From: a virus
Virus record (IMG/VR): IMGVR_UViG_3300028829_004530
Location: 1-56,907 of that record
DNA length: 56,907 nt
Direction: 5' to 3' (one strand)
Shown here piece by piece: positions 23,923 through 42,246 of this stretch. A model generated the notes under the pieces. That model made no database searches. It was given only the letters and a program-made list of their open reading frames with translations, and was not told the DNA's origin. The translations under genes and the position numbers were made by a program. Each line of letters opens with the position of its first letter. The stretch's first letter is position 1.

Positions 23923-24819
23923 TTAGTTAGTTTCTTCGTAATCTACAACTCTATCTTGTTCAAAATAGTATTCTTTCTTAGCTTGTGATAACCACCACTT
24001 ACTTTCTACTGGGTCTAACTCAGCTTTGTAAGAATGGAATAAGGAACCAACTCTTTGATTAAGGTGTTTATATCCAAATTTAGGAATAACAAATATCTTA
24101 TTATCTTTGAATGTCATTCTAAGTAAGAACTCATAAATGAATGTAAGTTTTATATTTGATTTAAGACCACCGAAGTCTTCGAATAATGATTTTTTAATTA
24201 CTGAACCATCAATGTTGAAGTTCTGATATGTAAGTAATGCTCCATTATCAAGGATACCCATTTCTTCTGAGAAACTTTGAGCCCATACAGCCTCGTTGGT
24301 AAGTCCAATGAATTGAGTTTGCTCATTTACATCCACAATTAATGGTAAGAACATATCCACATCTGAATGTGCTGCTCTATATTCCACAACATTCTTAAAC
24401 CAAATTTTAGCGTATTCATCATCTAATTCTAAGATGGATACCCACTCAGTTTTAGCAACTTCAACCCCTAAGTTAATTTGAGATGAGAAATCAGTCTTAC
24501 CATCGTTTTCAACAATAGTAACAATACTCTTAATCGCACCAAAATCATACTTACTTAACTCTTTAAATACATCACTACCTTTAGGTACAATGATTAAAAC
24601 TGCATCTGGTTTAGTCATTTGGTCTTCAATACTCTTTACTGCGTTAGCAAATAAAGTTCTCGTATCATCAGTTAATTCGTGAACTGGTAATAATACTGAA
24701 ATATCTGTTTTGACTGTTTTCTTTTTAACTGCTACTTTTTTGGTTGCTGTCTTCTTGGTTGTAGTCTTCTTAGCTGTAGCCTTCTTAGCTGTAGCCTTTT
24801 TGTTTGTTTTCTTTTCCAT
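23923..24819 (-). CDS. GT-A glycosyltransferase with basic repeat tail
   Basis: Residues 1-39 are Lys/Thr/Ala repeats (K-K-A-T-A-K-K-T-T) like the tails of histone H1-type proteins. The rest is a family-2-type GT-A domain: I-S-V-L-L-P-V-H (40-47), S-I-E-D-Q-M-T-K-P-D-A, and the acidic metal-binding site L-E-L-D-D-E (130-135). The acceptor half ends with H-L-N-Q-R-V-G-S. It sits two bases behind the next glycosyltransferase and abuts the late sigma gene. It probably transfers a sugar to a virion or envelope acceptor; the basic tail could hold DNA or an acidic protein. Donor and acceptor are unknown. Confidence 0.8.
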   Translation of the reverse strand: MEKKTNKKATAKKATAKKTTTKKTATKKVAVKKKTVKTDISVLLPVHELTDDTRTLFANAVKSIEDQMTKPDAVLIIVPKGSDVFKELSKYDFGAIKSIVTIVENDGKTDFSSQINLGVEVAKTEWVSILELDDEYAKIWFKNVVEYRAAHSDVDMFLPLIVDVNEQTQFIGLTNEAVWAQSFSEEMGILDNGALLTYQNFNIDGSVIKKSLFEDFGGLKSNIKLTFIYEFLLRMTFKDNKIFVIPKFGYKHLNQRVGSLFHSYKAELDPVESKWWLSQAKKEYYFEQDRVVDYEETN

Positions 24820-24821
24820 AA

Positions 24822-25946
24822 TTATGCTTTTGTTTCTACGTTAGTTTCTTTAGGTACCATAGCAACCACTTCTTCTCTTCTTGAAGCAACAATGTTTCCA
24901 TAAGTTTCCTCAATAGCTTTTCTTTGCTTTTCTAATGTGTAAGTCCCTCTAGTTTCTGCCATACCATCTAATAAACCTTGTGGTACTGAATCTTCAAACC
25001 AAACCTTCATATATGTTCCAATTAATTCTGGAATATTAAGTGTTGTGTTTGTCCAAACACCATTATTTTTAAGTGTAGTTTCACCCTTATCTGATGTTTC
25101 TTCCATCCATTCTGGAATCATGTTAGGAATCTTACCAATTACTGGTGTGTTACACTCCATAGCCTCAATTGGGAATGTTCCGAACCCAGATGGGTCATCA
25201 ATCCATACTGCTAAACAAGAGTTGGTTAATTCGTTTGCAAATGCTTCTTTTGGAAGACCTCTAAGTTCCTTGAATGTTACAAACTTGTAAATTGGATATT
25301 GAAGGTAGAATGATTTTGCTATTTTTTGTGCATCACCGTGATTTCTTGTTAAGATTGTCACGATAGGTTCTTTTGGTTTATCATTCATTTTGAACGAGTC
25401 AGAAATCCCAACAGGTACAATATGTGATTTCATACCAGGAAACAGGCTATTAATATAATCAGCTTGTTTATGTGATGTTGTAATTACATCACTAAAACCA
25501 TAATCCATATGCCATCTCTTTCCAATTGGTAATAACTCTAACAAGTAATCATATGATTGTGAAAAAACAATCTTCTTACATGGGAAAGCCTTAACTTGGT
25601 CCATTACATTAGAGAATACCTCTGGGATTATAATATAATCTGTTGGTGATACGTTTAGTTGTTGTGCCTCAATTGAAACGTGAGGTAGATTTGCATATTC
25701 CTCACCTAACCAATCTGAGATACCCATACCTTCTTCGTTTCCACGTACTCGATAATTATTTTTCTCATGCATGATATATGCCTTATAACCTAATTCATTT
25801 AACACTTTAACGTGCTCATAAATGTTAGCAACACTAGCTACTGGGTTACCCAATGTATCTAATGTAAAAAAGTAAAATGAGAAATCTTTGCTATCTATTT
25901 TTGCAAGGAGTTCTGCTACTTGTGTTTCTGGTGTTTTATTTTCCAT
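24822..25946 (-). CDS. GT-B glycosyltransferase, 374 aa
   Basis: A two-Rossmann-fold glycosyltransferase. The C-terminal half shows P-I-V-T-I-L-T-R-N-H, and the donor-site segment G-F-G-T-F-P-I-E-A-M-E-C-N-T-P-V-I-G, matching the E-x7-E-like region of GT4 enzymes. The N-terminal half has the acceptor-side pattern (V-K-V-L-N-E-L-G-Y-K-A-Y). An A-rich leader (A and T only) precedes the ATG, suggesting efficient translation. Overlap-free but tight spacing places it in the glycan operon. The sugar is not predictable from sequence. Confidence 0.82.
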   Translation of the reverse strand: MENKTPETQVAELLAKIDSKDFSFYFFTLDTLGNPVASVANIYEHVKVLNELGYKAYIMHEKNNYRVRGNEEGMGISDWLGEEYANLPHVSIEAQQLNVSPTDYIIIPEVFSNVMDQVKAFPCKKIVFSQSYDYLLELLPIGKRWHMDYGFSDVITTSHKQADYINSLFPGMKSHIVPVGISDSFKMNDKPKEPIVTILTRNHGDAQKIAKSFYLQYPIYKFVTFKELRGLPKEAFANELTNSCLAVWIDDPSGFGTFPIEAMECNTPVIGKIPNMIPEWMEETSDKGETTLKNNGVWTNTTLNIPELIGTYMKVWFEDSVPQGLLDGMAETRGTYTLEKQRKAIEETYGNIVASRREEVVAMVPKETNVETKA

Positions 25947-25964
25947 TTTTTTTATTTTTTATTT

Positions 25965-26351
25965 TTATTCTTCATCAATTTCTGTTAATACCCCAAATCC
26001 AAGTAACGTACTACACGCTATTTTAAATGGAATTGTGGTACTCGCTAATGCTCTTTCAAAACCTAACGTCTCATCAATTTCTTCATTATATGTTAGTAAA
26101 ACCTCTAAACACATTCTTAGGACATCATACTTTGGTCCATCAATAACTTGTGTTTTTTCATATTCTCTAGTCATCACACTTGTTGAAGTTGATTTCTGAC
26201 CACCAGCATCATTAGTGGTAATTTTTTCAGTTTCCGTTTCAGTAGCCATATCGTTATCACTACCGTTGGATACTATATTGGTGTATTTTTCTAAATCGAT
26301 GATATAATTCTTATCACCTAAACTTATCATACCCTCATTATAACTCTTCAT
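25965..26351 (-). CDS. Hypothetical protein, about 128 aa
   Basis: I prefer the ATG at 26351 (MKSYNEGMISLGD), which overlaps the previous gene by 14 nt; a longer start at 26399 would overlap it by 62 nt. The middle is a Thr/Ser/Glu-rich linker, and the C-terminus is a helical domain (Y-D-V-L-R-M-C-L-E-V-L-L-T-Y). No recognised family. It is coupled to the HAD-like gene upstream, so the two may act together. Confidence 0.6.
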   Translation of the reverse strand: MKSYNEGMISLGDKNYIIDLEKYTNIVSNGSDNDMATETETEKITTNDAGGQKSTSTSVMTREYEKTQVIDGPKYDVLRMCLEVLLTYNEEIDETLGFERALASTTIPFKIACSTLLGFGVLTEIDEE

Positions 26352-26976
26352 AGTCAGCTGTTTTGGTTCCGAAGATAGTCTCTCTAAGTTTCTCATCATT
26401 CATGAATTCCATAAGGTCATCAATTTCAAAGTCTGCTTTAACATCTTTATTATATGGTGAGTTAACCTTAACCGATATCTTACCAGAAGGTTTCGCTTCA
26501 AGAGCTACTGGACATGCAGTGATTAATACATCAAGACCATCCCATTTGTCAGCATAAGCTGTTACAAATCTAAAATTACTCGCTTTACAATGAGTCTTAG
26601 ATAAGAAAAAGAATGTTGCTGGGATACTACCAGCCGCTTCACGACTAACAATCTCAAACTCATGCTCTTCTTCATCCTTCATCTCCATAAGGAATTGATT
26701 AAGGTGGGTCATCATGTTAGGGTGTTGTTGGTCGCCTTGACCAAAGACCTCTAGAGGTGCCTCTAAATAAAGAAACTTTTTTAGTTCACGCTCATCTTCG
26801 AAATTAACCAATTCGTGATTCATAAGATTAAAATCTGTGATTGGGTATTTCGTAAGGTCAAATTCTATTGGTTTACCTTCTTCGTCACGTCCTGTATCAT
26901 GATACTTTTCGTACGTATAGGCAAATTGTCCAATATAGTCCCTTAGGACTTCGTTAAGTGTTATTCCAATTTTCAT
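26338..26976 (-). CDS. Possible HAD-like protein, 212 aa
   Basis: The N-terminus M-K-I-G-I-T-L-N-E-V-L-R-D-Y has the position and pattern of a HAD phosphatase motif I, but the two catalytic Asp residues of D-x-D are replaced (T-L-N). The C-terminal part with F-F-L-S-K-T-H-C-K and the strand D-V-L-I-T-A-C-P-V-A-L-E-A-K-P looks like motifs II-III of nucleotidase-like HAD folds. If so, it is a non-catalytic relative. The fold call is weak; the gene itself is convincing. It lies between PhoH and a short unknown gene. Confidence 0.55.
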   Translation of the reverse strand: MKIGITLNEVLRDYIGQFAYTYEKYHDTGRDEEGKPIEFDLTKYPITDFNLMNHELVNFEDERELKKFLYLEAPLEVFGQGDQQHPNMMTHLNQFLMEMKDEEEHEFEIVSREAAGSIPATFFFLSKTHCKASNFRFVTAYADKWDGLDVLITACPVALEAKPSGKISVKVNSPYNKDVKADFEIDDLMEFMNDEKLRETIFGTKTADYEEL

Positions 26977-27012
26977 ATGTTAATTATATTAATAATAGTC
27001 TGTAAGTAAACC

Positions 27013-27864
27013 TTACCATCTAAAATTCTTTCTAAACCAGATAGTGAGTTTTCTAAGGAATTTAGGTTTTTTCTTTTTATTCTTTTTTATTGTGGTTGCA
27101 ATGTTTACTCTTTCTATAACCTTATCAAAGTCTACATTAGAATAGTCACGACCATTGAGACTTGTTGGTTTATAGTTGTTAAGTATTTTAGAAATCAATG
27201 GGTTTCTAACAATCTCATCTTCACTGAATTCAATATACCCAATTTGTTCTATATTTTTATGCTTCTTAATACCATCATATAAACCACTATCTTTATAATT
27301 CTTGTATCTATCAGATTGGTCAAGGTCACCAGATATGATGAACTTTGAATTGTAACCAATTCTAGTAAGGAGTGTTTTCATTTGATGTGGGGACATGTTT
27401 TGCGCTTCTTCCATTACAAGTATGGTATTATCAATACTCTTACCTCTAATGAAACCCAAGGCACCAACAGATATAACACCGTCTTTTTCTAATCCAAGTC
27501 GATTCTTAATACCCATGATTTTATCTACGATATCTAAAGAAGGACCAACGAATGGGTCTAACTTTTCACGAAGGTCACCAGGCATGAAACCATATTTTTC
27601 CTCAGCCTCAACAGCTGGGTTTATAATAATAATTTTATTATATTGGTTGGAGACATTTTGGATTAACTCAATTGCTCTAGCAATCGCAACATAACTCTTT
27701 CCAACACCAGCTGGTCCAATTGCAAATATAATTTCTTTTTCAGTGATTAACCTAGAGAAATCTTTTTGTTTATGATTCTTACATTTAAGTCTGTGTCTTG
27801 TTGGGGTTTCCTTTGATACACTTTCCTCATTAGCTTGTTTTGTAGGCGTTTTCTTCTTCCTCAT
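27013..27864 (-). CDS. phoH: PhoH-like ATPase
   Basis: I choose ATG 27864, two bases after the upstream stop; an ATG at 27948 would overlap that gene by about 80 nt. From 27864 the product is 283 residues: basic Lys/Thr-rich N-terminus (1-30), then a PhoH P-loop domain with Walker A G-P-A-G-V-G-K-S (50-57), P-G-D-L-R-E-K (96-102), and Walker B I-L-V-M-E-E-A-Q-N (148-156) and I-S-G-D-L-D-Q-S. PhoH is common in large and marine phages; its role there is unsettled (RNA-linked NTPase or phosphate stress). The C-terminal end is highly basic. Confidence 0.92.
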   Translation of the reverse strand: MRKKKTPTKQANEESVSKETPTRHRLKCKNHKQKDFSRLITEKEIIFAIGPAGVGKSYVAIARAIELIQNVSNQYNKIIIINPAVEAEEKYGFMPGDLREKLDPFVGPSLDIVDKIMGIKNRLGLEKDGVISVGALGFIRGKSIDNTILVMEEAQNMSPHQMKTLLTRIGYNSKFIISGDLDQSDRYKNYKDSGLYDGIKKHKNIEQIGYIEFSEDEIVRNPLISKILNNYKPTSLNGRDYSNVDFDKVIERVNIATTIKKNKKKKPKFLRKLTIWFRKNFRW

Positions 27865-27865: not shown

Positions 27866-28852
27866 TTATCTACCCTTTTTTCTTTCTTTATTCTTGTATC
27901 GTTCATCAAGTTCATCTTCTCTGAATTGTTCAATAAGACTAACTCCATCCTTTAATACCTCACTCTTAAATTTGATAACATAATAACCATCAAATTCAAT
28001 CAACTTATCAAATCCTGTAATCTTATATTCAAAATCATGTAAGTCCATAACACCTATCGTATTATATGAAACAAAATCGACTGTTGAAATGTCTAAGAAA
28101 TCAGCAACTCTAGGATTCTTCATCGCTTTCTTTACCTCAGATATAAAAAGTTTAGATTTTCTATCATCTGGGTTGGCGTATTTAGATACGTAAAACTCTA
28201 GTAATTTTTCAGTTTCAGAAATGGTTCTAACATTCATCTTTTTAGTAAACATTTCAAGTTCAAACTTAGCTCTAAATTCTCTAGTACAAGAAATCATTCT
28301 TTCTGTTTTATTACTTGATTCATAACCAGCACGACTTATCTCTCCTATAGTTGCTTGCCCCTCTTGTTTACCTGTATCTGGGTTTTCTGTTATTTGTATT
28401 GTCTTTTCAATTTCTTCACGTGAAAGTTCTTTAATATCAAAATCTAATGAGTCAGTCATAACCGAATCATTATTAACAACTATTTCTAACTCGTAATCAT
28501 CATATTCATCAATCTTTATCTTAGCCATCCCAGCTTTCTTTCGACTACCAACAGTTTCAACAATTGGGGTTCCATCATCTTCATATCCAATGACGTTGAT
28601 TCTTTTCTCATTTTCAAATTTTTCAGTCTCATCTAAAACCTTATACATTCTCCATCTAAGGTCTCTAACTTCTTGGTTTATTTCACCTCTAGACAATGCA
28701 TCGGCAAGTGTTCCTTGGTTATGTCTTCGTTCTTTAGAAGACCCACCACCAGACTCACTATCACCACCTTGTGATAACATGTTCTCTTCAACGTTACCTG
28801 TTGCTAATGCAACAGCAGTAAGTTGTTTCTTTATCCATTTACCCAATCCCAT
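27866..28852 (-). CDS. Hypothetical protein, 328 aa
   Basis: ATG 28852 (MGLGKWIKKQL) is preferred; it overlaps the epimerase stop by 14 nt, while a GTG at 28912 would overlap it by 74 nt. The N-terminus has a possible amphipathic helix followed by a Gly/Ser/Glu-rich linker, and the rest is mixed alpha/beta with charged helices. No recognised domain. Its stop is one base from the PhoH start (TAA T ATG), so the two are translationally coupled. A virion or regulatory role cannot be assigned. Confidence 0.65.
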   Translation of the reverse strand: MGLGKWIKKQLTAVALATGNVEENMLSQGGDSESGGGSSKERRHNQGTLADALSRGEINQEVRDLRWRMYKVLDETEKFENEKRINVIGYEDDGTPIVETVGSRKKAGMAKIKIDEYDDYELEIVVNNDSVMTDSLDFDIKELSREEIEKTIQITENPDTGKQEGQATIGEISRAGYESSNKTERMISCTREFRAKFELEMFTKKMNVRTISETEKLLEFYVSKYANPDDRKSKLFISEVKKAMKNPRVADFLDISTVDFVSYNTIGVMDLHDFEYKITGFDKLIEFDGYYVIKFKSEVLKDGVSLIEQFREDELDERYKNKERKKGR

Positions 28853-29849
28853 ATCTCTCAAAAATTTTACAAATTCGTTTAGATGACATACCGTCACCAT
28901 AAGGTGATTCACTTGTTACGTCATAATTATTTATGTGTTTATCAAACAACCCTTTTAAGTCTTTTGGTTCCTCAACCATGAAACTAGTAAGACCAACTGA
29001 TTCTGGTCGTTCGGTTACCTTTCGACAAACCAATGCCTTCTTATTAAAGAATGAACATTCTTCTTGGATACCACCACTATCTGTAATAACCAATCTACAC
29101 TTAACTAATGTTTTAATTAACTCATCGTGAGTCATTGGTTCAACAACCTTAACCCAACTACTTAATTTTTTCCTGTGTTTTTGAACATTAGGATTCGGAT
29201 GTAATGGTAAAATAAACTCTAAGTGTGGGTGTACCGCAGCAATATCATTTAATTCGTTAAACCATTCACCCATTTGCTTATGATTCTCCCTTCTATGCAT
29301 TGTAATTAAGACCTTATTGGTGTATTCACAATCTTTTTTATATGGTAAAAGATTATCTAGTACCGTATTCCCAACAACTTGTATCTTAGAACCACTAATA
29401 TTTTCGTTGCGTAGATTTTTAAGATTTAACTTAGTTGGGCAAAGATGTAAATCAGCAATTGTTGAAACAATCATTCTATTATTCTCTTCTGGAAATGGGT
29501 TCTCGACATCACCAGTTCTAAGTCCAGCTTCTAAGTGAACTACCTTAATCTTTCTATGCATTGCAGCTATGGCTAAACCAACAACTGATGTGGTATCACC
29601 TTGTACTAGTATATGTGTAATACCCTCAAAACATTCATCTGGAATACTTAAACAATTTTTCATTACTGAATCTAATCGATTACCATCATAATCAACCATG
29701 GTCAAATTAAAGTCAGCATCCTTAGGTGCAATGTCTTTGTGTTGACCAGTGAACAGAGTTTTAAAGGTCATGTTTGACCTAGTCATCTCATCAATTAATG
29801 GTTTAACTTTAATATATTCTGGTCTAGTCCCGTATGTTATTAATATCAT
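28839..29849 (-). CDS. wecB: UDP-N-acetylglucosamine 2-epimerase (WecB-like)
   Basis: Converts UDP-GlcNAc to UDP-ManNAc in the cytoplasm, feeding surface-glycan synthesis. All hallmark segments are present: G-T-R-P-E (7-11), Q-G-D-T-T-S-V, V-H-L-E-A-G-L-R-T, F-P-E-E-N-N-R, H-L-C-P-T, V-V-G-N-T-V-L-D, M-H-R-R-E-N and D-S-G-G-I-Q-E-E. The 336-residue length is close to the usual 360-380. It overlaps the sugar-kinase gene by 4 nt (ATGA type), so both are co-translated. The call is strong; no dehydrogenase for ManNAcA is present in the window. Confidence 0.93.
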   Translation of the reverse strand: MILITYGTRPEYIKVKPLIDEMTRSNMTFKTLFTGQHKDIAPKDADFNLTMVDYDGNRLDSVMKNCLSIPDECFEGITHILVQGDTTSVVGLAIAAMHRKIKVVHLEAGLRTGDVENPFPEENNRMIVSTIADLHLCPTKLNLKNLRNENISGSKIQVVGNTVLDNLLPYKKDCEYTNKVLITMHRRENHKQMGEWFNELNDIAAVHPHLEFILPLHPNPNVQKHRKKLSSWVKVVEPMTHDELIKTLVKCRLVITDSGGIQEECSFFNKKALVCRKVTERPESVGLTSFMVEEPKDLKGLFDKHINNYDVTSESPYGDGMSSKRICKIFERYGIG

Positions 29850-30595
29850 ATAAAATCACCTATTTTATTTACTCCCTTATGTTGTACAATTATAGTTGCA
29901 CAATCGTTGGCAAATTCAATTGCTTTGGTTATATCACCACATTCTAAATACTTAACAACCAATGTAGCCATGAACGTATCCCCAGCACCAGTCATATCTT
30001 TGATATCAACCTTTTCTACTGGATAAATAATCCCTTCGTAATTACAACCTTTACTTCCGATGGTAACAATTAAATTGTGGTTAAATTTACTCATATCAAC
30101 ATGAGCTTTTACATTGTTATCATATTCTAATTTGTTAATCTTAATTATCTTTGCATTTAAGCAATAATCACCTAGAATTTTCTTGGTATCAATGAAGACG
30201 TTCTTATGATTATTACATAACCATTTAATTTCTTCAACCCCAATAAAACCCTTACAATAATCTGAAATTATTATAACATCATAATCTTGAAGTCTTATAG
30301 ACATTAAATCCTTAAGTTTATCAACACTTGATTTGTCTGAATCGACTCTAACTAACATCTGATTAGTCTTCTCATCAACATATCTAGTCTTGGTTATTAA
30401 TTCTTTATTGGTGATGATGTCAACATTCTCATGAATTGACTTAACATTATCAAAAACATTCATAGCCATTCCACCATTTTCAATTGTTTTTGTTGGGATT
30501 AGTACTGGTACTGGTGCATCTGGACACAGTCTATCACATCTACCATAAATGTAAATGTCACGACAACTATCACCAATAATTAAAACCCTACCCAT
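29846..30595 (-). CDS. PfkB-type sugar kinase, HldE N-domain-like
   Basis: The ATG at 30595 overlaps the upstream stop (TAATG) and is preferred to the TTG at 30601. The protein matches the kinase half of HldE/RfaE, which phosphorylates heptose 7-phosphate at C1 in ADP-heptose synthesis: G-D-S-C-R-D-I-Y-I-Y-G, C-P-D-A-P-V-P-V-L, N-G-G-M-A-M-N-V and the PfkB signature D-M-T-G-A-G-D-T-F. At about 249 residues it is shorter than the usual 310-residue domain, and the nucleotidyltransferase half is absent. The natural substrate could be another sugar phosphate. Confidence 0.82.
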   Translation of the reverse strand: MGRVLIIGDSCRDIYIYGRCDRLCPDAPVPVLIPTKTIENGGMAMNVFDNVKSIHENVDIITNKELITKTRYVDEKTNQMLVRVDSDKSSVDKLKDLMSIRLQDYDVIIISDYCKGFIGVEEIKWLCNNHKNVFIDTKKILGDYCLNAKIIKINKLEYDNNVKAHVDMSKFNHNLIVTIGSKGCNYEGIIYPVEKVDIKDMTGAGDTFMATLVVKYLECGDITKAIEFANDCATIIVQHKGVNKIGDFI

Positions 30596-30999
30596 TACCA
30601 ACTAACTTCCCAATCTTTAAAATCAGCTGCAAGACAATCAATTTTATAATCTTTACGACCACCAGCTGCTTCTTGAATTTTATTCTTAGCGACATTACGA
30701 ATACCGTTTAATCCGTGTGTTAATTCTAAGTCATTACCATCCTTTATACCCTTACGGTAGTTAGATTCATTATGCCAGATGTGTAAGTTCATTTGAGATA
30801 GGACCACAATTGCTCTTATAATCTCAGCAGTCATCTTCCCTTCATTTTCATCTAAGTGAAGTTGAATATCATGTACGATATCATTAATCTCATCTGCATA
30901 TTCTTCTTTATGGTCTGTTATGAATACCTCTTTAAGTTGAGTTATTGATAATCTATCTACTAATTCAGATAGTGTTGGTAAATATTTTCTTTGTTTCAT
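30595..30999 (-). CDS. Helical phage protein near sugar genes, 134 aa
   Basis: A helical protein with L-S-E-L-V-D-R-L-S-I-T-Q-L-K-E-V and a C-terminal region I-W-H-N-E-S-N-Y-R-K with H-G-L-N-G-I-R-N-V-A-K-N. I recall this layout from proteins found beside nucleotide-sugar genes in other large phages and LPS loci (DUF4254-like), but no activity is known to me. It shares a TAATG junction with the sugar kinase gene, so it probably works in the same pathway. Confidence 0.65.
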   Translation of the reverse strand: MKQRKYLPTLSELVDRLSITQLKEVFITDHKEEYADEINDIVHDIQLHLDENEGKMTAEIIRAIVVLSQMNLHIWHNESNYRKGIKDGNDLELTHGLNGIRNVAKNKIQEAAGGRKDYKIDCLAADFKDWEVSW

Positions 31000-31000
31000 A

Positions 31001-33502: not shown

Positions 33503-33508
33503 TTGTAA

Positions 33509-34204: not shown

Positions 34205-35433
34205 GCATCAACATTTTCAACTATCTCGACTTCTGGAAATGGTATAATGAATTTAACACCACCTTCAATCAGTTCCTTATTTCTTTCTATAATCTCATCA
34301 ACAAAGTTGTGTGCCAATAAAAGATAATAGTCTGGTACATCATCAGCACTCTCACGAACTATAGGTATGTGAGTGTTTGGTAGATAAAGCCCAATCTTAA
34401 GGTCATTAACCTCAACACACTTATCAATGAGTGTATTATCAATATTGAAGTAATTTAAAAGCGTATTACCCTTTGCTGGTGCCCCGTATGCATATATCTT
34501 AGCATCTGGGTTCTCTTCTTTGATTTTAACTAACATGTCTCGCAAGTCATTTCGCTTATCCTCAACAGTCTTCGCAAAATCTAAGAACACATCCTTAGTG
34601 TATTTCATATCCAACTTTTTAAGGTCAGTATACCTTTGATATTTCTTAGTATAGATAAATGGTGCCTTAGCATGTGATACCTTCGCAATAACGCTACCAC
34701 TATGGATTTCACTATAGTAAGCATCGAATATTTCAAGACCATATGGTTCTAAAAGTTTCCCTAGACTCCTAAGTGTGTAATAACACAAGTGCTCATGGTA
34801 AATACCATCAAAGTTTAACTTTTCAACCATCGTACCAGCATACATAAATTGAACAACAAATACACCGTCATCCATAAGAGCTTTCTTGATTCCTCTAATA
34901 ACACTATGTAATTCCTCTAAATGAAAGAATACACCAGATGCATTGATTAATTTAACCTTACCCTCAAGTTCATGTTTGGTGATTACTTCTTCATTGAAAA
35001 AATCGTTGATTGTTGAGATACCAGCATCCTTCGATAACTGTGCAATGTTGTCAGCTGATTCTACATTTAAAACATTATACATACCAGCCCTAGTATATTC
35101 TACTAATTGGGTTCCATCATTCCCACCAATATCTAAGATAAGGTCTTTAGGACCCAAATTAAATTGGTCTCGATTCTCAACTGCCAACTCAAAGAAGTGT
35201 TTCTTAAGAGTTTTGGTTGTTGACGATACGTACGTATGATTTTTAAACATTACTTCTTTAGGTACGGTGTAGTTTAATTGTAGTAATTCACAATTATTAC
35301 AATGTACTAAGTGTAATGGGTATTTTTCTTCTTTTCCTAATCTATCTTCGGTTAGAAAATCATTACACCAAGGATGTTCTCCTAGGTCTAATATGCTACT
35401 ATAATTTTCACTTTTACAAGATTTACATTTCAT
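34201..35433 (-). CDS. Sugar C-methyltransferase (NovU/TylCIII-like)
   Basis: The three-part layout of sugar C-methyltransferases is visible. An N-terminal zinc-binding module has C-K-S-C (3-6) and C-N-N-C (45-48). A SAM domain follows with I-L-D-I-G-G-N-D-G-T-Q (about 98-108) and the F-D-G-I-Y-H-E-H-L-C-Y-Y catalytic segment. A C-terminal domain has A-Y-G-A-P-A-K-G-N-T-L-L. Length 410 is normal. Family members add a branch methyl to keto-sugar nucleotides. The gene overlaps the next by 4 nt. The call is strong, though the sugar is unknown. Confidence 0.9.
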   Translation of the reverse strand: MKCKSCKSENYSSILDLGEHPWCNDFLTEDRLGKEEKYPLHLVHCNNCELLQLNYTVPKEVMFKNHTYVSSTTKTLKKHFFELAVENRDQFNLGPKDLILDIGGNDGTQLVEYTRAGMYNVLNVESADNIAQLSKDAGISTINDFFNEEVITKHELEGKVKLINASGVFFHLEELHSVIRGIKKALMDDGVFVVQFMYAGTMVEKLNFDGIYHEHLCYYTLRSLGKLLEPYGLEIFDAYYSEIHSGSVIAKVSHAKAPFIYTKKYQRYTDLKKLDMKYTKDVFLDFAKTVEDKRNDLRDMLVKIKEENPDAKIYAYGAPAKGNTLLNYFNIDNTLIDKCVEVNDLKIGLYLPNTHIPIVRESADDVPDYYLLLAHNFVDEIIERNKELIEGGVKFIIPFPEVEIVENVDA

Positions 35434-35442
35434 GGTTTAAAG

Positions 35443-36381
35443 TTAACCATTTTTTATAATATTGTAAAGGTTTTGTGTTGAGTAATTTAAAGATTTTTTA
35501 TAAGCTGATTCAATGATTGGTGTGTAGTCATCCCAATTGTTTAAGATATCTTTTATTTTACCTTCTAACTCAGTATTAGAATCGAAATATATAAAGTCCT
35601 CACCAGCGGTGTAGTATTCCTCTACTAGGTTCCATGGGTCTCTTTGAATTAGATTAAGTGTTCTAGACATTGCAGCTTCATTGAATCTAGATTTAAATTG
35701 AGGTGCTATCCCTAAATCATCAATGTGTTTAAAGGCTTCATTCTTAGACCAATCTTTTCGACTTTTAATATTATTAATATCTTTGGTACCTCTAATTGGG
35801 AATGTATTGTAACATATGGAAATCTTACACTCAGAAATCAAATTTAATTTTTCCTCGTTGGTTAGATTTAGATTTGTCGCATATTTACCTATTGTTTGTT
35901 TAGTTAATGGATTAATTCCAGTCGTCATCGACATGTATCTATAATTAAATTTAGATAGGGTTTCAAGGCATTGTATATATGTTGGACCATGTATCCCACC
36001 GTGATAACATACATCATACTTTTTCTCGGTATTTTTAGGTATATCAATTTCATTAAATGGATAACAGATAGTTTTATATTTATGAACACCTTTAACCTCA
36101 TTCAACCATCTATTAGTATATGGACAAATACCATAAATTTCATCAAATTTATTATCTAAATCCATATTCTGTTTACTACAAAATTCAGTTGGCATTGTTA
36201 CATTTAGATATACTTTTCTTTTGTAGTCTTTAATTTGATTAAAAGTATTATTATTAATTAAATTATTATAACCATATAATAAAACATTTTCCCCATCATC
36301 CTCATCAGATAATTCATCCAATCTAAAGAAATGGGTATTCGTCCCGTTAATTTCAAGTGATAAATCCTTTAAGACTCTCAT
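35443..36381 (-). CDS. Probable GT-B glycosyltransferase, 312 aa
   Basis: A divergent glycosyltransferase-like protein: Y-D-V-C-Y-H-G-G-I-H-G-P-T-Y-I in the hinge/donor region, a K-S-R-F-N-E-A-A-M-S-R-T-L-N segment like the E-A-x-x-x-G motif of group 1 enzymes, and a C-terminal helical closing segment. The N-terminal domain is Asn-rich. No membrane segment. It lies 9 nt behind the C-methyltransferase start and overlaps its upstream neighbour by 4 nt, within the glycan operon. The exact family is uncertain. Confidence 0.65.
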   Translation of the reverse strand: MRVLKDLSLEINGTNTHFFRLDELSDEDDGENVLLYGYNNLINNNTFNQIKDYKRKVYLNVTMPTEFCSKQNMDLDNKFDEIYGICPYTNRWLNEVKGVHKYKTICYPFNEIDIPKNTEKKYDVCYHGGIHGPTYIQCLETLSKFNYRYMSMTTGINPLTKQTIGKYATNLNLTNEEKLNLISECKISICYNTFPIRGTKDINNIKSRKDWSKNEAFKHIDDLGIAPQFKSRFNEAAMSRTLNLIQRDPWNLVEEYYTAGEDFIYFDSNTELEGKIKDILNNWDDYTPIIESAYKKSLNYSTQNLYNIIKNG

Positions 36382-37115
36382 ATATACCCTCTTTTTTTTA
36401 TGTCGATATTATATTCATCTAATAATGGTAGTAATTCTTTAGGGTATTCTGATTTATTCCATTTACCTTTAATTATTGCGGTTGCAATGTATGGAAATAC
36501 ATCAGTATCATAATGATACATCCCACGCTTTGCTTCACCACTATAGTATGATAAACCAATCATATTTAATTCTCTACACAAATCATTTCCAGCCACTTCA
36601 AAATGACCGTGTTGTGCACCACCAGCCCCTATGTGTAAGTCTGGTCCAATCTCATGTATTTTTTTAATACTATCAGTCCTCCAAATTGCTGCTGTTTGAC
36701 TATAAAAATGGGGTTGTTTATGAGTTAGGAAGTATAATTCATTATTAAATTTATCGTTGGTGAAGTTTGGTCCTCTAGCTAATCTAATAAATGAGAATTC
36801 TGGGTTCTCTTCCAGTATTGATAAATAATCATTTATCTTGTCAACATTAACATTATCGTATAGTATATAATCTTCATTCAAATATAATATAAACTTCTCT
36901 GAAACTTCTTCAATACATTGTAAGTATTGTGTTCTGAACATATCATTACTATTATATATAATAGGTGTGTATTTAGAATCTAAACCATCACTATTATCAG
37001 TGAATATATATAGTTTATTGTTTGGGTAATATTTTTCTAACTGAATTAGAAATAAATCTAAAACATCTCTAGACGATGAGTGTGTGTTAACAACAATTGC
37101 GTAATTAGTATTCAT
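36378..37115 (-). CDS. GT-A-like glycosyltransferase, 245 aa
   Basis: The N-terminal strand Y-A-I-V-V-N-T-H-S-S and the acidic metal site I-L-Y-L-N-E-D-Y-I-L (77-86) have the form of a GT-A fold. The C-terminal half (Q-T-A-A-I-W-R, E-V-A-G-N-D-L-C) supplies the acceptor region. The classical D-x-D is replaced by N-E-D. It overlaps the sulfotransferase gene by 11 nt. Glycan assembly is the likely role; donor unknown. Confidence 0.68.
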   Translation of the reverse strand: MNTNYAIVVNTHSSSRDVLDLFLIQLEKYYPNNKLYIFTDNSDGLDSKYTPIIYNSNDMFRTQYLQCIEEVSEKFILYLNEDYILYDNVNVDKINDYLSILEENPEFSFIRLARGPNFTNDKFNNELYFLTHKQPHFYSQTAAIWRTDSIKKIHEIGPDLHIGAGGAQHGHFEVAGNDLCRELNMIGLSYYSGEAKRGMYHYDTDVFPYIATAIIKGKWNKSEYPKELLPLLDEYNIDIKKRGYI

Positions 37116-37671
37116 AATTAAAGTATTCTATATCTTCTTTGAAAAGGTTTCGTACTAACTCTATACTTTCCTTATCATAATATTCCTTATACCCCCCTCG
37201 TTTACTCTTTTTTTTGTGGGGTATATTATTAATCTGTATCCCAACTTTATCACCAATTGATTGAACCTCAGTATCATAATCCTCAAATCTAGCAATATAG
37301 TCAACTAATAATTCTCCATTATCGTCAATAATCCAAGATTTCTGTGATTTAATTAATATATCATACCATTGATTATCCCTATTACAAAAACCAACCACGA
37401 ATTCTTTAAATGAGTTTGGAATGGTTTTTTTATGGTGTTGATTTTCTGGTTCTGAACCAAATTTATAATAATGGTAAATTGAAACTAACCTATCCCATGG
37501 ATTTCTAACAAAGGTGAATTTTAAATAATCATCCCAAATATCTGAGTAAGTTTCCTTGGCAACAACACCATTTAAATGTTGAACTCCCTTCATCCCTAAT
37601 ACGGTTTCAATTGAACTACCACCAGTCTTAGGTATGTGAATTATTATTGTTTTTAGTTTATGAGAAATCAT
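37105..37671 (-). CDS. Sulfotransferase family protein
   Basis: Sulfotransferases move sulfate from PAPS to sugars or proteins. The 5'-phosphosulfate loop is H-I-P-K-T-G-G-S-S (12-20), and the 3'-phosphate site is F-T-F-V-R-N-P-W-D-R-L (52-62), with an S-I-Y-H-Y-Y helix following. This is the pattern of the heparan 2-O-/carbohydrate sulfotransferase group (Sulfotransfer_2). The length of 188 is compact. It overlaps genes on both sides, so it belongs to the glycan operon and probably sulfates the glycan. Sulfated glycans are common in marine settings; in phage genomes the gene is rare. PAPS would come from the host. Confidence 0.85.
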   Translation of the reverse strand: MISHKLKTIIIHIPKTGGSSIETVLGMKGVQHLNGVVAKETYSDIWDDYLKFTFVRNPWDRLVSIYHYYKFGSEPENQHHKKTIPNSFKEFVVGFCNRDNQWYDILIKSQKSWIIDDNGELLVDYIARFEDYDTEVQSIGDKVGIQINNIPHKKKSKRGGYKEYYDKESIELVRNLFKEDIEYFNYEY

Positions 37672-38318
37672 ATTTTATCATATTTTTTAAATACAGTAAA
37701 CTCAGTTAAGTCTCTATAACCGTTATCTTCACCTAAATCTGGAACATGCTCTGGATAGTTCTGCATTAGGGATAGACCGTGAGCAGCTTCTTGTGGTGTC
37801 ATGTACATATTCCACCCAAGCATTTTAATATCATCTTCATGGTATAATTTCTCACTTCTACCTTCATATCTAGCAGTCTTAAACCACTCAACAGCATCAG
37901 CATCATTAGTTAAGATTACCCCACCCTTCCCAATCTTGAGGTGTTTCTTGATATGAAATGATAAACACATGAAAGTGTCTTTAATATACATGTCACTAGT
38001 GAAGCGTTTAGCCGCATCATAAATTGGATACGGAGCTAATTGATAAATCCCCCTCCAATTATTGGTTTTGAATGATGTATCAAATACTAAATTATGTCCA
38101 GAGTGAATCACCGATTGTGGAACCGATAAATATGTCTTACTAGGTATGATAACATCTTTGTTATTACCTAAGTGTTTTTGATACATTAAACACAAGAATA
38201 ATGCATTGGTACAGCTATCAACAGATACTGCATATTTAGCTCCTGTGTATTCAGCAACTGATTCTTCAAACATCTTTACGATATTATAAGGGTTGTGTTT
38301 CTTTCTATCAAATCCCAT
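37668..38318 (-). CDS. DegT/DnrJ-type aminotransferase, short form
   Basis: Sugar aminotransferase-like PLP protein: Y-A-V-S-V-D-S-C-T-N-A-L-F (cofactor phosphate region), V-I-I-P-S-K-T-Y-L-S-V-P (substrate region), Y-D-A-A-K-R and the PLP-lysine region S-F-H-I-K-K-H-L-K-I-G-K-G-G. At 216 residues it lacks most of the C-terminal domain of the usual 370-residue enzymes. It may be a trimmed active enzyme, since large-phage versions can be compact, or a degenerate one. It overlaps the acyltransferase gene by 11 nt, the common pair for making N-acylated amino sugars. Confidence 0.8.
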   Translation of the reverse strand: MGFDRKKHNPYNIVKMFEESVAEYTGAKYAVSVDSCTNALFLCLMYQKHLGNNKDVIIPSKTYLSVPQSVIHSGHNLVFDTSFKTNNWRGIYQLAPYPIYDAAKRFTSDMYIKDTFMCLSFHIKKHLKIGKGGVILTNDADAVEWFKTARYEGRSEKLYHEDDIKMLGWNMYMTPQEAAHGLSLMQNYPEHVPDLGEDNGYRDLTEFTVFKKYDKI

Positions 38319-39099
38319 GTGGTGTAAATTTAGCTTTTGTTGGAAGTAAGAATTTCATAAATTCCACCTCATCTTTAGTTCTTTTTTTGGTATATGTTCT
38401 AGTGTCTACATCAAAGTAAGATAATTCATCATCTAGATTAAATTTGTCAACACTATCAACAATTTTAATGGTTGAGTGTGCATCGAAGTCAAATAAGTGT
38501 TCAACCATCTTATCCATTTTCTCATCTATTGTTACATGATTGAACTGAGGTCCTACTTTATCAGTTATATCCTTTGCTGGTGTCCCAGCATATACATGAT
38601 TATATTCCATATCTTTAGTTATAACAGAACCAACCAATGCCATTGCTTTATCAGCAATAGTAACTGGTGAAACAATGCAGTGCCCAACCAACCAAACATC
38701 GTTGCCGATATTTAATTCATCATTGGACATGAATCGATTACCTTCAAGCATATCACCATAAAGGATGTGTGACCATAATTGAGAATTAGCTCCAATACCA
38801 ACATTATTACCTATTGTTGTACCACCAATACAATCCATTATTGTAAATTGACCAACCCAGCAGTTATGACCCATCTTAAATGGTTTGTAACCGTGTATAT
38901 TACAATGATGGTGTATCTTACTATAGTCACCTATTTCTACATCATCACAGATGATTTCAACGTTATGACCAATGTAAACATTATCCCCAAGAACTACTCT
39001 CTTAGCAGCACCATCAATACCCCTAATCTTCGCTGATGGGTCAATAAATGTACCCTCACCAATAATTAATTCCTCAACATGAATGTTTCCATTATTCAT
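38308..39099 (-). CDS. Hexapeptide-repeat acyltransferase
   Basis: ATG 39099 overlaps the upstream stop (TAATG) and is preferred to 39111. The N-terminal two thirds are left-handed beta-helix hexapeptide repeats (I-I-G-E-G-T, V-V-L-G-D-N, V-Y-I-G-H-N, V-E-I-G-D-Y, I-G-N-N-V-G-I-G-A-N), ending in Y-A-G-T-P-A-K. This is the LbetaH acetyl/acyltransferase fold. A distinct C-terminal domain of about 80 residues follows. It probably N- or O-acetylates a sugar made with the adjacent aminotransferase. The call of fold is firm; acyl donor is presumed acetyl-CoA. Confidence 0.87.
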   Translation of the reverse strand: MNNGNIHVEELIIGEGTFIDPSAKIRGIDGAAKRVVLGDNVYIGHNVEIICDDVEIGDYSKIHHHCNIHGYKPFKMGHNCWVGQFTIMDCIGGTTIGNNVGIGANSQLWSHILYGDMLEGNRFMSNDELNIGNDVWLVGHCIVSPVTIADKAMALVGSVITKDMEYNHVYAGTPAKDITDKVGPQFNHVTIDEKMDKMVEHLFDFDAHSTIKIVDSVDKFNLDDELSYFDVDTRTYTKKRTKDEVEFMKFLLPTKAKFTPHGI

Positions 39100-39890
39100 T
39101 ACCATATACAATTCTTATTTAAGTAATTTCTACCTTGTTTTAACCAATATTCAGATAGGTAAGCTCTACTACCTTTCCAACCTTCCATCTTCATTAATGG
39201 ATTTAATGTACTTCCAATGTCTATATATGTGTTTGTATCGTTCGCCTCATATAGTTGGTGAATGATGACGTTACTAAGACTACCACAAGATACTAGAAAT
39301 ACATGATTCTCAATACCTTCCTTTTCAATATAATCCTTTAATACATCCACTAAAAAGTAATCGTTTATAAAACAATTGGACCCGACTCTAAAACTCTTCT
39401 TAACGTCGAATGGTAATTCATTTAATTTTGCAATTTCATTAACAACCATTATAATTTCTTTATCCTTGAATAACGGTACAATTTCATCCATGAATTTCTC
39501 ATAGTTACCATTATTCCATAGATTTGCCCATGTAAGACTTTCATCCGTATTATCAGTACCATGCAAATCTAACTGCCAATTAAAATCTGTATCACCAACA
39601 CAGCATCTACAGCTAATACCCTTGTAGTAATTATCCTTTTTAAATTGTAGGGAATCTATTAATTTTTGTCTGTTGAATTGGTGTTCCTCTGGGATGAATT
39701 TTTTTTGTTCTTCTTTATTATACCATCCACTACGTTGGACACCATCTAATGACCAAAAGTTTTCAGCTAATTCAACTGGTCTGTTTTGTAATGTATGTAA
39801 TTCACCATCAGAAAATCTAGCAAAGGCAAAATTCTCACCCTTAACTAATTTATCTTTTAATTTATTAAAATCCTCTTTAAAATCTTTCAT
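39099..39890 (-). CDS. GT-D-like glycosyltransferase (DUF1792 type)
   Basis: The segment F-A-F-A-R-F-S-D-G-E-L matches the R-F-G-D-G-E signature with the D-x-E metal motif of GT-D fold enzymes. Near the C-terminus V-F-L-V-S-C-G-S-L-S-N-V-I and Y-I-D-I-G-S-T-L-N match the V-x-x-x-G-P... and D-I-G... segments of the same family. Length 263 is normal. Its ends overlap neighbours by 1 nt on both sides. It probably adds one sugar in glycan assembly. Confidence 0.72.
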   Translation of the reverse strand: MKDFKEDFNKLKDKLVKGENFAFARFSDGELHTLQNRPVELAENFWSLDGVQRSGWYNKEEQKKFIPEEHQFNRQKLIDSLQFKKDNYYKGISCRCCVGDTDFNWQLDLHGTDNTDESLTWANLWNNGNYEKFMDEIVPLFKDKEIIMVVNEIAKLNELPFDVKKSFRVGSNCFINDYFLVDVLKDYIEKEGIENHVFLVSCGSLSNVIIHQLYEANDTNTYIDIGSTLNPLMKMEGWKGSRAYLSEYWLKQGRNYLNKNCIW

Positions 39891-40606
39891 TACTTTGCAT
39901 TTATTATCTTAAATCCATTTCCAATTAAATGTTTATAATATTTATTCATCAACTCAATATTAGCTGGAATCAATGATAAACCATTTTTCTCAGTTCCCAT
40001 TTCCCAACCCTTAAGGCTACTCCACATCTCCTTTGCATGTTCTGGGTGTGGTGGGACATATGTGTTAATACCTAAGTATTTTTGAAGCATATAAGAAAAA
40101 TGCATATCTTCCCCAACAACATTAAAACCTTCTGGTGGTAATTCTCTAAACATAGTTGAGAGCCATTCTCGTTTGAAAAACCAAGCGTGTCCAACTATAT
40201 CAACTTGGACTGGTTTGTTGTTGGGGTTAGCCCATCCAAATCTAGTGTTTGGTAAATAACCATTTTCAGAGTTATAAACTAACCCAATACCACCTAATAA
40301 ACCTTCATGACTTTTCATCGTATTGAGGCAGTTTTCAAACCACATAGGACCTGGTATTGTATCATCATCAAATACACAAATATACTCAGTTTTAGCATTT
40401 AAAGCATATGCGAATCTAGCCCATACACCAAAGTTTTTATTTGATGAAGCTGTAGTCAATTTCGATGTTAATTCTGGGTCAAATCCCTCAGAACTATTTT
40501 GCCAAAGCATTATCTCAGCTGGCTCCACCGTTTGATTTTGAATCGCCTCTACTTGTTCTTTAAGAAATTGTGGTCTTTTATAACCATTTAAAATTGCTGT
40601 AATCAT
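39890..40606 (-). CDS. Family-2 glycosyltransferase, 238 aa
   Basis: GT-A domain: M-I-T-A-I-L-N-G-Y-K-R-P, I-Q-N-Q-T-V-E-P-A-E-I, the nucleotide/metal site V-F-D-D-D-T (78-83), and the acceptor region with G-E-D-M-H-F-S-Y. No membrane segment. It overlaps the two-domain glycosyltransferase gene by 4 nt. It acts in the cytoplasm on an unknown acceptor. Confidence 0.85.
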   Translation of the reverse strand: MITAILNGYKRPQFLKEQVEAIQNQTVEPAEIMLWQNSSEGFDPELTSKLTTASSNKNFGVWARFAYALNAKTEYICVFDDDTIPGPMWFENCLNTMKSHEGLLGGIGLVYNSENGYLPNTRFGWANPNNKPVQVDIVGHAWFFKREWLSTMFRELPPEGFNVVGEDMHFSYMLQKYLGINTYVPPHPEHAKEMWSSLKGWEMGTEKNGLSLIPANIELMNKYYKHLIGNGFKIINAK

Positions 40607-42246
40607 TGTACGATTTCTTTATACTCTTCTATTATTTCTTGAGCAACATTATCTGCTCTAAATTTATCAATATCATCTGGTACTTGATGTAATTCCTTAC
40701 CTTTGATGTGTCCAGAAGAATCTACATCATAAATCCACCCAGCTTTACCACATAACCAACCTTCGATAGTTGTTCTACCTAATAGAATTCCAGCAGTTTC
40801 ATCACACTTCTGTACAAATTTTTCTACAGACCCACTTGGTCCATGATAAGTAACATGGTCATTATCACCAATTAAATCAGAAGCTAACACACCATTTTCC
40901 TTCCCAACAATCCAAAGTTCTTTTCCGTCAGCCTTAGTTGTTGATATTAAATCTCTAAGAGTTTCTTCACGTAAGTAATCTAAGGTTCCAACAAATAAAA
41001 CAATTGGTTTCTCATTCTTACTTTCAACAACTTTAAAACGCTTATAGTCAATTGGGTTGTAAACCACATCAATCATATCCTCAGCAATCTCGAAGCGTTC
41101 CATTAAAAAGTCTTTAATTTCTGGTCTAATTGCTATGTATTTTTTAATTTGTGGGTTAATGATTGGATGTTCAAGGTCAATAACCTCAGAATGTATTGAA
41201 CAAATAGTATCTGTGTCTGGGTACAACTTTAATAAATGTTCAGTAATTGGTTTATGATTTAAATGTAATACATCAAATTGAACATCTTGAATCTTGTATA
41301 GGTGATTCTTTACTGATTTAACTTGACCGTTAGGTGTGTTAAGTACCCATTCACCATCACCTAATTTGTAGCCTGGTGGTTCTTGAATATTAAATAACTT
41401 AATCCCATGTGCATGTGCCTTTCTAGCTATTGGGTCTCCAAGTGTTGAACACACAGAAACGTCACACCCTTGGCTAACTAATTCCTTAGCTAATTCATAA
41501 ACATATAATTCAGAACCAGTATAATTAGCAAAATTAAGACACCCAATAAGTACCTTTATCTTTTCGTTTTTTCTAAATTCTCTTTTGATGTTGATTGGTA
41601 ATACCTTAGCGAATCTTTCAGCAAATCTCTTTCTATTAACTTCCCACTCATCATTAGTTTCACCAATTGATTGGTGATTAACTTTAAGAAAAGTATGAAC
41701 ACCAACCTTTACACCATCTAGATAGTTTCTAAATGTAAAGTCAATATCATAGAAGTGAAATCCTTCAACTGATTCATCAAAACCATGTTTAATTCTCCCC
41801 TTATGACACGAAAAGAATACACCATCAACAACGATAACTTCTTCTATGTCAGTACCAATGTCAGCACTGTAGGAGTTCAACCAACTTTTACCTTCACTAG
41901 TATGCTTAACTCTACCGTACATTTTCTTACGCTTCTCCCACCACATACCAGTCTCTGCCATGTACTTGGTTCCAGCAACACCAAGAATACCAAACTCTGG
42001 ATTCTTATCATACATCTTAACCAATTTCTTACCCCACTGTTTAGTTTCAACAGTAAGGTCATCATGACAAAATACTACAATATCATATTTGGCTTGTTCT
42101 AAGCCACGATTGTAACATTTAGTTAGTGATTCACCATTATTAATAATTTCAATCACCTCGACGTGCTTATGTAGTCCAGAGGACTTTATAAGGTGTTCCT
42201 TATGTGCTGGATTTGTTTCTCGTGTACAATATACAATACTTACCAT
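40603..42246 (-). CDS. Two-domain glycosyltransferase (GT-A plus GT-B fusion)
   Basis: The first domain (about 1-225) is GT-A: M-V-S-I-V-Y-C-T-R-E, Y-N-R-G-L-E-Q-A-K-Y-D-I-V-V-F and the metal site C-H-D-D-L (60-64). The second (from about 229) is GT-B: V-L-I-G-C-L-N-F-A-N-Y-T-G-S-E-L-Y, V-D-V-V-Y-N-P-I-D-Y-K-R-F and V-L-F-V-G-T-L-D-Y; the E-x7-E region reads T-T-I-E-G-W-L-C-G-K-A. Such bifunctional proteins can add two sugars in sequence. It is the first gene of the tight glycan block, 11 nt from dUTPase. Length 547 fits two intact domains. Confidence 0.85.
   Translation of the reverse strand: MVSIVYCTRETNPAHKEHLIKSSGLHKHVEVIEIINNGESLTKCYNRGLEQAKYDIVVFCHDDLTVETKQWGKKLVKMYDKNPEFGILGVAGTKYMAETGMWWEKRKKMYGRVKHTSEGKSWLNSYSADIGTDIEEVIVVDGVFFSCHKGRIKHGFDESVEGFHFYDIDFTFRNYLDGVKVGVHTFLKVNHQSIGETNDEWEVNRKRFAERFAKVLPINIKREFRKNEKIKVLIGCLNFANYTGSELYVYELAKELVSQGCDVSVCSTLGDPIARKAHAHGIKLFNIQEPPGYKLGDGEWVLNTPNGQVKSVKNHLYKIQDVQFDVLHLNHKPITEHLLKLYPDTDTICSIHSEVIDLEHPIINPQIKKYIAIRPEIKDFLMERFEIAEDMIDVVYNPIDYKRFKVVESKNEKPIVLFVGTLDYLREETLRDLISTTKADGKELWIVGKENGVLASDLIGDNDHVTYHGPSGSVEKFVQKCDETAGILLGRTTIEGWLCGKAGWIYDVDSSGHIKGKELHQVPDDIDKFRADNVAQEIIEEYKEIVQ

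Follow-up and report, generated by a model that had tools for sequence, protein, structure and literature searches.

A fixed core of glycosyltransferases and an exchangeable sugar cassette in a virus contig with a probable Bacteroidota host

The linear virus contig IMGVR_UViG_3300028829_004530, a stretch of 56.9 kb that was analysed whole and is called the window below, carries on its minus strand a long block of glycan genes. The first-pass annotation had read 23923-42246 as a single 18-kb operon for glycan synthesis and decoration; we find two layers instead. The first consists of core glycosyltransferases at 44244-45527, 40603-42246, 24822-25946 and 23923-24819, which lie at fixed places amid conserved phage genes, and the second is a cassette of about 12 kb (28839-40606) extending from the gene at 40603-42246 to the PhoH region. 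PhoH and three further non-glycan phage proteins (25965-28852) interrupt the block, and one conserved glycosyltransferase, at 44244-45527, falls outside the limits originally drawn. The fixed genes and their neighbours are as follows.

44244-45527, minus strand: conserved glycosyltransferase phrog_7162 (PHROG 6e-37), left edge of the module
42830-43396, minus strand: HD protein (Pfam HD 0.0028; synteny), flank upstream of the cassette
42258-42830, minus strand: dUTPase (Pfam dUTPase 1.5e-30; synteny), flank upstream of the cassette
40603-42246, minus strand: two-domain glycosyltransferase, GT2 + GT4 (PF13712 1.6e-30, PF13439 1.7e-12), cassette boundary
27866-28852, minus strand: phage protein beside PhoH, function not assigned (21 of 45 testable loci)
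27013-27864, minus strand: PhoH ATPase, internal ATG used (PF02562 2e-58), right cassette boundary
26338-26976, minus strand: lineage-core non-glycan protein (63 of 63 loci)
25965-26399, minus strand: lineage-core non-glycan protein (63 of 76 loci)
24822-25946, minus strand: core GT4-like glycosyltransferase (PDB 8xsg, AmGGT, E 4e-11 in an alignment search)
23923-24819, minus strand: core GT2 glycosyltransferase (PF00535 1.3e-7)
23137-23922, minus strand: lineage-core protein, possibly a gp55-like late sigma factor (weak; phrog_984 at only 0.0095)

The cassette, listed in the same leftward order, holds these genes.

39890-40606, minus strand: GT2 glycosyltransferase (PF00535 1.5e-8, DDD motif)
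39099-39890, minus strand: GT-D-like glycosyltransferase (GT-D-like in 11 of 21 family members, best 1.2e-8; invariant DGE)
38308-39111, minus strand: hexapeptide acyltransferase, WcaF/NeuD-like (Hexapep 2.7e-11), directly upstream of the next gene
37668-38318, minus strand: half-size DegT-type sugar aminotransferase of 216 aa, called mini-DegT below (DegT 2.1e-24; SFHxxK)
37105-37671, minus strand: carbohydrate-type sulfotransferase (PF03567 3.3e-14; both 3'-phosphoadenosine-5'-phosphosulfate motifs, PKTGGSS and FVRNPWDR)
36378-37115, minus strand: putative glycosyltransferase (no Pfam match alone; kept in cassettes of relatives)
35443-36381, minus strand: GT-B glycosyltransferase (PF13524 1.5e-5, at cut-off)
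34201-35433, minus strand: sugar 3-C-methyltransferase (PF08421 and PF08484)
33509-34204, minus strand: S-adenosylmethionine methyltransferase (PF13489 5e-12)
32564-33502, minus strand: short-chain dehydrogenase/reductase (SDR), nucleoside diphosphate (NDP)-heptose C4-dehydrogenase-like (PDB 6vo6 E 2.9e-100; next structure 5e-18)
31659-32564, minus strand: SDR, GDP-L-fucose-synthase-like, C4-reductase type (PDB 4b8w E 2.6e-32)
31001-31666, minus strand: S-adenosylmethionine methyltransferase (PF13489 8.3e-7)
30595-30999, minus strand: 134-aa helical protein, function not assigned (weak DUF4254)
29846-30601, minus strand: PfkB kinase of 251 aa, HldE heptose-7-phosphate kinase type (GAGD motif)
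28839-29849, minus strand: WecB, UDP-GlcNAc 2-epimerase (TIGR00236 at 241.8 bits, above the cut-off of 210.15; Pfam 5.6e-68)

The tight packing reported earlier was confirmed on rechecking, with overlaps of 1-14 nt and ATGA or TAATG junctions throughout 28839-42246. Hidden Markov model (HMM) searches bear out the families given for WecB, the PfkB kinase, the two SDRs, the three methyltransferases, DegT, the hexapeptide acyltransferase and the sulfotransferase, and the key motifs are intact; the phage is thus predicted, as proposed, to carry its own enzymes for sugar synthesis, transfer, methylation, acylation and sulfation. The count of seven or more glycosyltransferases held only in part: the GT2 enzymes at 23923 and 39890 and the GT2 + GT4 protein at 40603 are recovered by HMM, those at 24822 and 39099 emerge only with alignments, 35443 sits at the cut-off, and 36378 found no support, with no PDB match even for an alignment of 18 sequences. 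A weak similarity of 44244-45527 to Glyco_hydro_53, at the cut-off, is probably spurious.

Relatives of the window were gathered with the mini-DegT, 40603, 30595 and 24822 proteins as queries. In 13 of them the slot between 40603 and PhoH measures 2.7-10.7 kb and holds differing sugar genes, while its flanks, including the place of 40603-42246, are unchanged. A Pfam tally of 85 open reading frames (ORFs) inside these slots gave GT2, GT11, SDR and GDP-mannose-dehydratase types, FkbM and other methyltransferases, hexapeptide and GNAT acyltransferases, and DegT. The content of the cassette therefore differs from phage to phage, and variable content between syntenic core genes is what characterizes a hypervariable glycan island. 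Looking for the gene order in related phages, as had been suggested, returned the gene set in syntenic relatives, and because of this recurrence its presence is far beyond chance.

The core genes behave differently from the cassette. Homologues of 24822 with at least 56% identity were found at 75 viral loci, and of the testable loci around this gene 23923 is present in 86 of 86, 23137 in 80 of 80 and PhoH in 53 of 54. When distances were compared with those of 23137 by a Mantel comparison over 57 deduplicated loci, 24822 gave r 0.84 and 23923 gave r 0.87, matching the 0.84-0.88 of other core genes and unlike PhoH (r 0.38), so that these two glycosyltransferases are inherited together with the phage core; for 40603 the value was r 0.22, on 9 loci only. 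Homologues of 44244-45527 are 48-75% identical and occupy the same place in relatives. Among phage records no protein match to the core glycosyltransferases of this lineage was found, and the phage matches of 23137-23922 are hypothetical proteins. The closest solved structure to 24822 is Actinobacillus AmGGT (8xsg), which is homologous to Agt, a cytosolic GT4 enzyme that elongates glucose linked to protein (PMC12159676).

The GT2 protein at 23923-24819 has a Lys/Thr/Ala-rich N-terminal tail (24709-24819) with a weak histone-like (HC2) match. The tail is limited to the window species and its closest relative, and DNA binding by it was rejected as a lineage feature since other relatives are without it; such tails could trigger ‘histone H1-like’ calls in related phages. 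An apparent fusion of 24822 and 23923 in five relatives was likewise rejected, the ORFs having 382-409 aa and the overlap arising from the low-complexity tail.

The chemistry encoded by the cassette is more specific than that of a generic glycan and points to a modified heptose plus an N-acylated amino sugar. For the heptose, the SDR at 32564-33502 finds in 6vo6, which we take to be the Campylobacter capsule heptose C4-dehydrogenase Cj1427, a match far ahead of any other structure. The second SDR also matches NCBIfam Fcl (4.4e-35, under its cut-off), the 34201-35433 protein matches the D-mycarose 3-C-methyltransferase structure 4rv9 (E 8.8e-66), and the best match of the kinase is TIGR02198 (8.5e-33; 113.8 against a cut-off of 345 bits, the protein being short). 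In a sister locus (L146) the same slot contains, contiguously, a Cj1427-like SDR, the 134-aa protein, an HldE-type nucleotidyltransferase, a cupin, the kinase, WecB and PhoH; in the window, the nucleotidyltransferase and cupin of that order are missing between the 134-aa protein and the kinase. The nucleotidyltransferase (PF01467) was found in 12 of 18 contigs searched and is not in a 72.7-kb IMG/VR contig that is near-identical to the window. An RmlC-type epimerase, named by reading the sequence, occurs in other relatives (L112). At the level of enzyme families the assignment to heptose-type chemistry is thus strong, while the pathway encoded on this contig has missing steps.

The second sugar depends on mini-DegT. 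The family match claimed earlier for this aminotransferase holds, and the protein proves to be half-size. Its relatives are encoded on at least 115 viral contigs; the 79 that were retained, not counting the window species, show 62-76% identity, and most are 195-241 aa long. D101 and K125 are invariant in 25 sequences, and the phosphate-binding residues are conserved. The AlphaFold model (pLDDT 88.7) matches DegT enzymes in Foldseek (best E 1.6e-8, TMq ~0.5-0.66 for the top matches) and aligns with PseC, WbpE and GDP-perosamine synthase, without their C-terminal domain. Of the features expected of the DegT/DnrJ/EryC1/StrS family, the predicted structure has the pyridoxal phosphate lysine, the cofactor aspartate and the large-domain fold; the usual length of ~360-400 aa with a C-terminal small domain is absent at 216 aa. 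A split enzyme with its C-terminal domain encoded next door was rejected, as the adjacent small ORF is a GNAT protein in three of four relatives and has no confident match in the fourth. Since an acyltransferase lies directly upstream (a hexapeptide enzyme here, a GNAT acetyltransferase at the same position in relatives L006, L019 and L022), the natural reading is that a keto sugar would be transaminated by mini-DegT and then N-acylated. A second, divergent mini-DegT (35-40% identity) stands at the same locus as the first in five relatives (L008:12284, L009:14335, L027:15445, L051:18097 and L146:4789-5400). An unexpected beta-keto acid cleavage enzyme (BKACE, E 5e-61) lies in a sugar cassette right behind mini-DegT at L022:9943-10770.

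The 134-aa protein is encoded by at least 436 viral contigs, yet 50,697 phage records contain no copy; the members sampled share 73-88% identity with that of the window and include long invariant blocks. A heptose-type gene lies no more than 4.5 kb away at 45 of its 71 distinct loci; the Cj1427-like SDR is near in 38, the kinase in 26, an RmlC-type epimerase in 25 and the nucleotidyltransferase in 15. Marine Flavobacteriales genomes carry it too (73-85% identity), and we rejected a strict link to glycans because homologues of the window glycan genes are absent nearby on these chromosomes; at L178:8001-8405, for example, it sits between translation genes and recA, in surroundings free of glycan genes. 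A structure search with its low-confidence model gave no match. On a 130-kb Prochlorococcus single-cell contig (L189), which may be of phage or of host origin, the 134-aa protein, an HldE-type kinase and a Cj1427-like SDR occur together.

By simple hydropathy, no membrane segment and no hydrophobic stretch above 1.6 was found in the cassette and core glycosyltransferase proteins. The cassette enzymes all look soluble and include no flippase, polymerase or lipid-linked initiator, and no tail-fibre gene was found inside the cassette.

On the plus strand the window carries terminase, portal and a T4-type major head protein. The capsid protein can be aligned over most of its length with a single phage record, that of RM378 of Rhodothermus (94% of the length, 29% identity); for Flavobacterium phage immuto and Microcystis phage Mel-JY01 about 56-60% of the length aligns at 37-42% identity. 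No DNA-level relatives of the window were found among phage records. Bacterial translation in the Bacteroidota uses A-rich leaders and no Shine-Dalgarno sequence. Gene starts in the window are A-rich at -13 to -11 (67-72%) and show no excess of Shine-Dalgarno sequences (6 of 61 against 4 expected), so this large uncultured phage probably infects a Bacteroidota bacterium. The lineage may be that of the moraphages, discussed below. Three further features bear on transcription.

44221-44251, minus strand: Bacteroidota-type promoter TTG-N20-TATATTTG, directly downstream of 44244 and before HD, dUTPase, 40603 and the cassette unit
48388-48401, minus strand: putative late-gene motif TATTTATAATAAAA, at the head of the leftward genes
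48442-52059: tail fibre with chaperone domain

The position of TTG-N20-TATATTTG is kept in 7 of 14 loci, one of them from the window species, against 0.04 expected per locus. Because this host-type promoter stands beside nucleotide-metabolism genes ahead of the cassette, it suggests that the cassette unit is transcribed early, a timing that would suit a virion acceptor and a host acceptor alike. In the divergent intergenic stretch 48379-48441, TATTTATAATAAAA occurs on both strands 9-10 nt ahead of the starts of the leftward gene and the tail fibre, and the pair are possible near-leaderless late promoters. Exact copies of a motif TATTTATAATWAAA lie just upstream of several structural genes and at the leftward-gene head (48388-48401); it has 25 matches with up to two mismatches against 11.6 expected, a number reached in 0 of 100 shuffles, and relatives have few copies with at most one mismatch. 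We infer that TATATTTG-type and TATTTATAATWAAA motifs are early, host-type signals and late signals, respectively. The canonical T4 late promoter TATAAATA was rejected, as its 19 sites against 11.4 expected are within what simulated sequences reach (20); TATTTATAATWAAA is the better fit.

We interpret the block as a core-plus-cassette glycosylation module whose sugars most likely end up on a virion protein, a reading for which we put the chances at about even. Inside the infected cell the cassette would make two tailor-made sugars. The heptose would be formed by the HldE-type kinase, the Cj1427-like C4-dehydrogenase, the fucose-synthase-like reductase and the 3-C-methyltransferase, with steps missing here coming from host enzymes or other phage genes; the N-acylated amino sugar would come from mini-DegT and the adjacent acyltransferase. 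Cassette glycosyltransferases would add both sugars, and methyl- and sulfotransferases would trim them. The core glycosyltransferases would attach and extend the glycan on a soluble cytosolic phage protein, probably a virion component, so that exchange of the cassette would bring in different outer sugars with the same acceptor and core enzymes, giving a phage ‘serotype’. A soluble acceptor is the simplest model because there is no flippase, polymerase or lipid-linked initiator, and a phage acceptor is preferred because the core glycosyltransferase pair is inherited with the phage core; together, the absence of a membrane component and the vertical inheritance of the two core enzymes favour the virion. 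More tentatively, and with more doubt than confidence, we propose the full version: a viral modified-heptose pathway, including the conserved 134-aa protein as a hitherto unrecognised component, and the half-size DegT feeding exchangeable outer sugars to a conserved cytosolic core, with capsule-like virion serotypes as the outcome.

Several points weigh against a virion glycan made in this way. The acceptor and the virion glycan are predictions from the genes. Among the four core glycosyltransferases vertical inheritance is supported for 24822 and 23923 only, and the target of this pair could instead be a conserved molecule of the host. Transcription of the cassette seems to start, along with that of dUTPase and HD, from a host-type promoter, which suggests early expression. 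With the C-terminal domain absent, the aminotransferase activity of mini-DegT stands as a prediction. The heptose route is incomplete in the window, given the lack of the nucleotidyltransferase and of a C3/C5 epimerase and the absence of GmhA (PF13580) from all 19 records searched, a step that the host could supply; NTP_transferase was found in no phage relative searched, only in a cellular genome.

The same promoter, kept ahead of the cassette with dUTPase and HD in 7 of 14 loci, would equally serve a phage that rebuilds the lipopolysaccharide or capsule sugars of its host, for example excluding competing phages or stopping its progeny from re-adsorbing to debris. The enzyme families match those of O-antigen and capsule loci, and such remodelling is the favoured function of the pelagimyophage islands (PMC7029224). 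Yet the block contains no flippase, polymerase, ligase, lipid-linked initiating transferase or membrane segment, and inheritance of the core pair like core phage genes is unexpected if the acceptor were a variable host glycan; we regard host-surface remodelling as a real possibility that falls well short of an even chance. Protection of the genome, with the glycosyltransferases decorating modified bases of phage DNA, is improbable. It could draw on the presence of several GT2-type enzymes and a dUTPase in one phage, on the Lys-rich tail of the core GT2 in the window species and on the precedent of virus-encoded DNA-glycosylating enzymes (cited in PMC12619734). However, that tail is not conserved, five large relatives have thymidylate synthases of the canonical kind (LGLPFN) and no separate hydroxymethylase, the window itself being a fragment, a search whose control was silent gave no Tet_JBP match, and 3-C-methyl, heptose and sulfate chemistry resembles that of surface glycans.

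Two readings do without a polymer or without any role. The heptose-type genes and the 134-aa protein travel together, and in many phage loci they do so with none of the window glycosyltransferases nearby; this, along with the 134-aa protein amid housekeeping genes of a flavobacterial chromosome, would be expected if NDP-heptose or related metabolites were diverted for intracellular nucleotide-sugar metabolism or signalling. Against this, a single string of overlapping genes encodes several glycosyltransferases together with tailoring enzymes, and we consider this account quite unlikely. Least probable of all, the block could be neutral or decaying cargo that does nothing for the phage at present: measured against the sister locus L146 its heptose route lacks steps, but all reading frames and catalytic motifs are intact, overlaps are tight, and mini-DegT and the 134-aa protein are 65-88% identical across diverse phages, which indicates purifying selection.

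Parts of this picture are already known, and the earlier description of the block as an undescribed system was too strong: glycan islands of T4-like marine phages (PMC7029224) and four core glycosyltransferase groups of moraphages (PMC12619734) have been described. The host recognition cluster of pelagimyophages and cyanomyophages is a large non-syntenic island between syntenic core genes, rich in glycosyltransferases and sugar genes, with rfaE mentioned (PMC7029224). In pelagimyophages it is bounded by VrlC and gp14 and includes tail fibres, whereas the window cassette lies between GT2 + GT4/dUTPase and PhoH and has none; lineage-core glycosyltransferases outside the cassette are also unlike the pelagimyophage island, and the host looks like a member of the Bacteroidota rather than SAR11. 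Moraphages are large aquatic phages with predicted Bacteroidota hosts, and their capsid tree includes a Rhodothermus phage (PMC12619734); RM378, the one isolate with a capsid protein that aligns over most of that of the window, comes from Rhodothermus. The sections of that description covered here contain no cassette, heptose genes or mini-DegT, and some relatives of the window (345-362 kb) are larger than moraphages as described there. A cultured phage of Baltic Flavobacterium, vB_FspM_immuto, has a contiguous cluster (gp169-gp181) of glycosyltransferases, a methyltransferase and an epimerase with a mini-DegT homologue (gp172) at 44% identity to that of the window; no heptose genes and no 134-aa protein were found in it.

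The heptose kinase of Campylobacter jejuni is of another type than PfkB/HldE, the type encoded in the window. Capsular heptose modification in that bacterium involves Cj1427 (the C4-dehydrogenase), Cj1428 and Cj1430 (PMC10680097, PMC7949155), and the window resembles this pathway in its C4-dehydrogenase-like SDR with the 6vo6 match and its fucose-synthase-like C4-reductase, with the RmlC-type epimerase in relatives. It differs in the kinase, in the absence of nucleotidyltransferase and epimerase from the window and in being phage-borne. Mycobacteriophages encode glycosyltransferases, and glycans are reported on their capsid and tail tube subunits (cited in PMC12619734); here a whole sugar-synthesis and tailoring set is encoded. 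The lysogenic gtr serotype-conversion systems use a membrane flippase and a membrane-bound transferase, hydrophobic segments of a kind that simple hydropathy does not detect in the window glycan genes. Literature searches on the immuto cluster, phage sulfotransferase or lipopolysaccharide islands and phage heptose pathways returned nothing specific, and we found no description of the two-layer layout, of Cj1427-type heptose genes in a phage, of the half-size DegT family or of the conserved 134-aa partner.

Phages with many glycosyltransferases are often reported, and their product and target are almost never known. Comparison with relatives here tells a core that is inherited apart from a cassette that can be exchanged, and it leads to specific chemical predictions open to assay, namely a C4-oxidised, branched heptose and an N-acyl amino sugar. 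The half-size DegT and 134-aa families are common among viruses and strongly conserved, and their functions can be tested. If the sugars are indeed placed on virions, the serotype of the particles would shift by cassette exchange, which may affect adsorption, clearance and co-infection.

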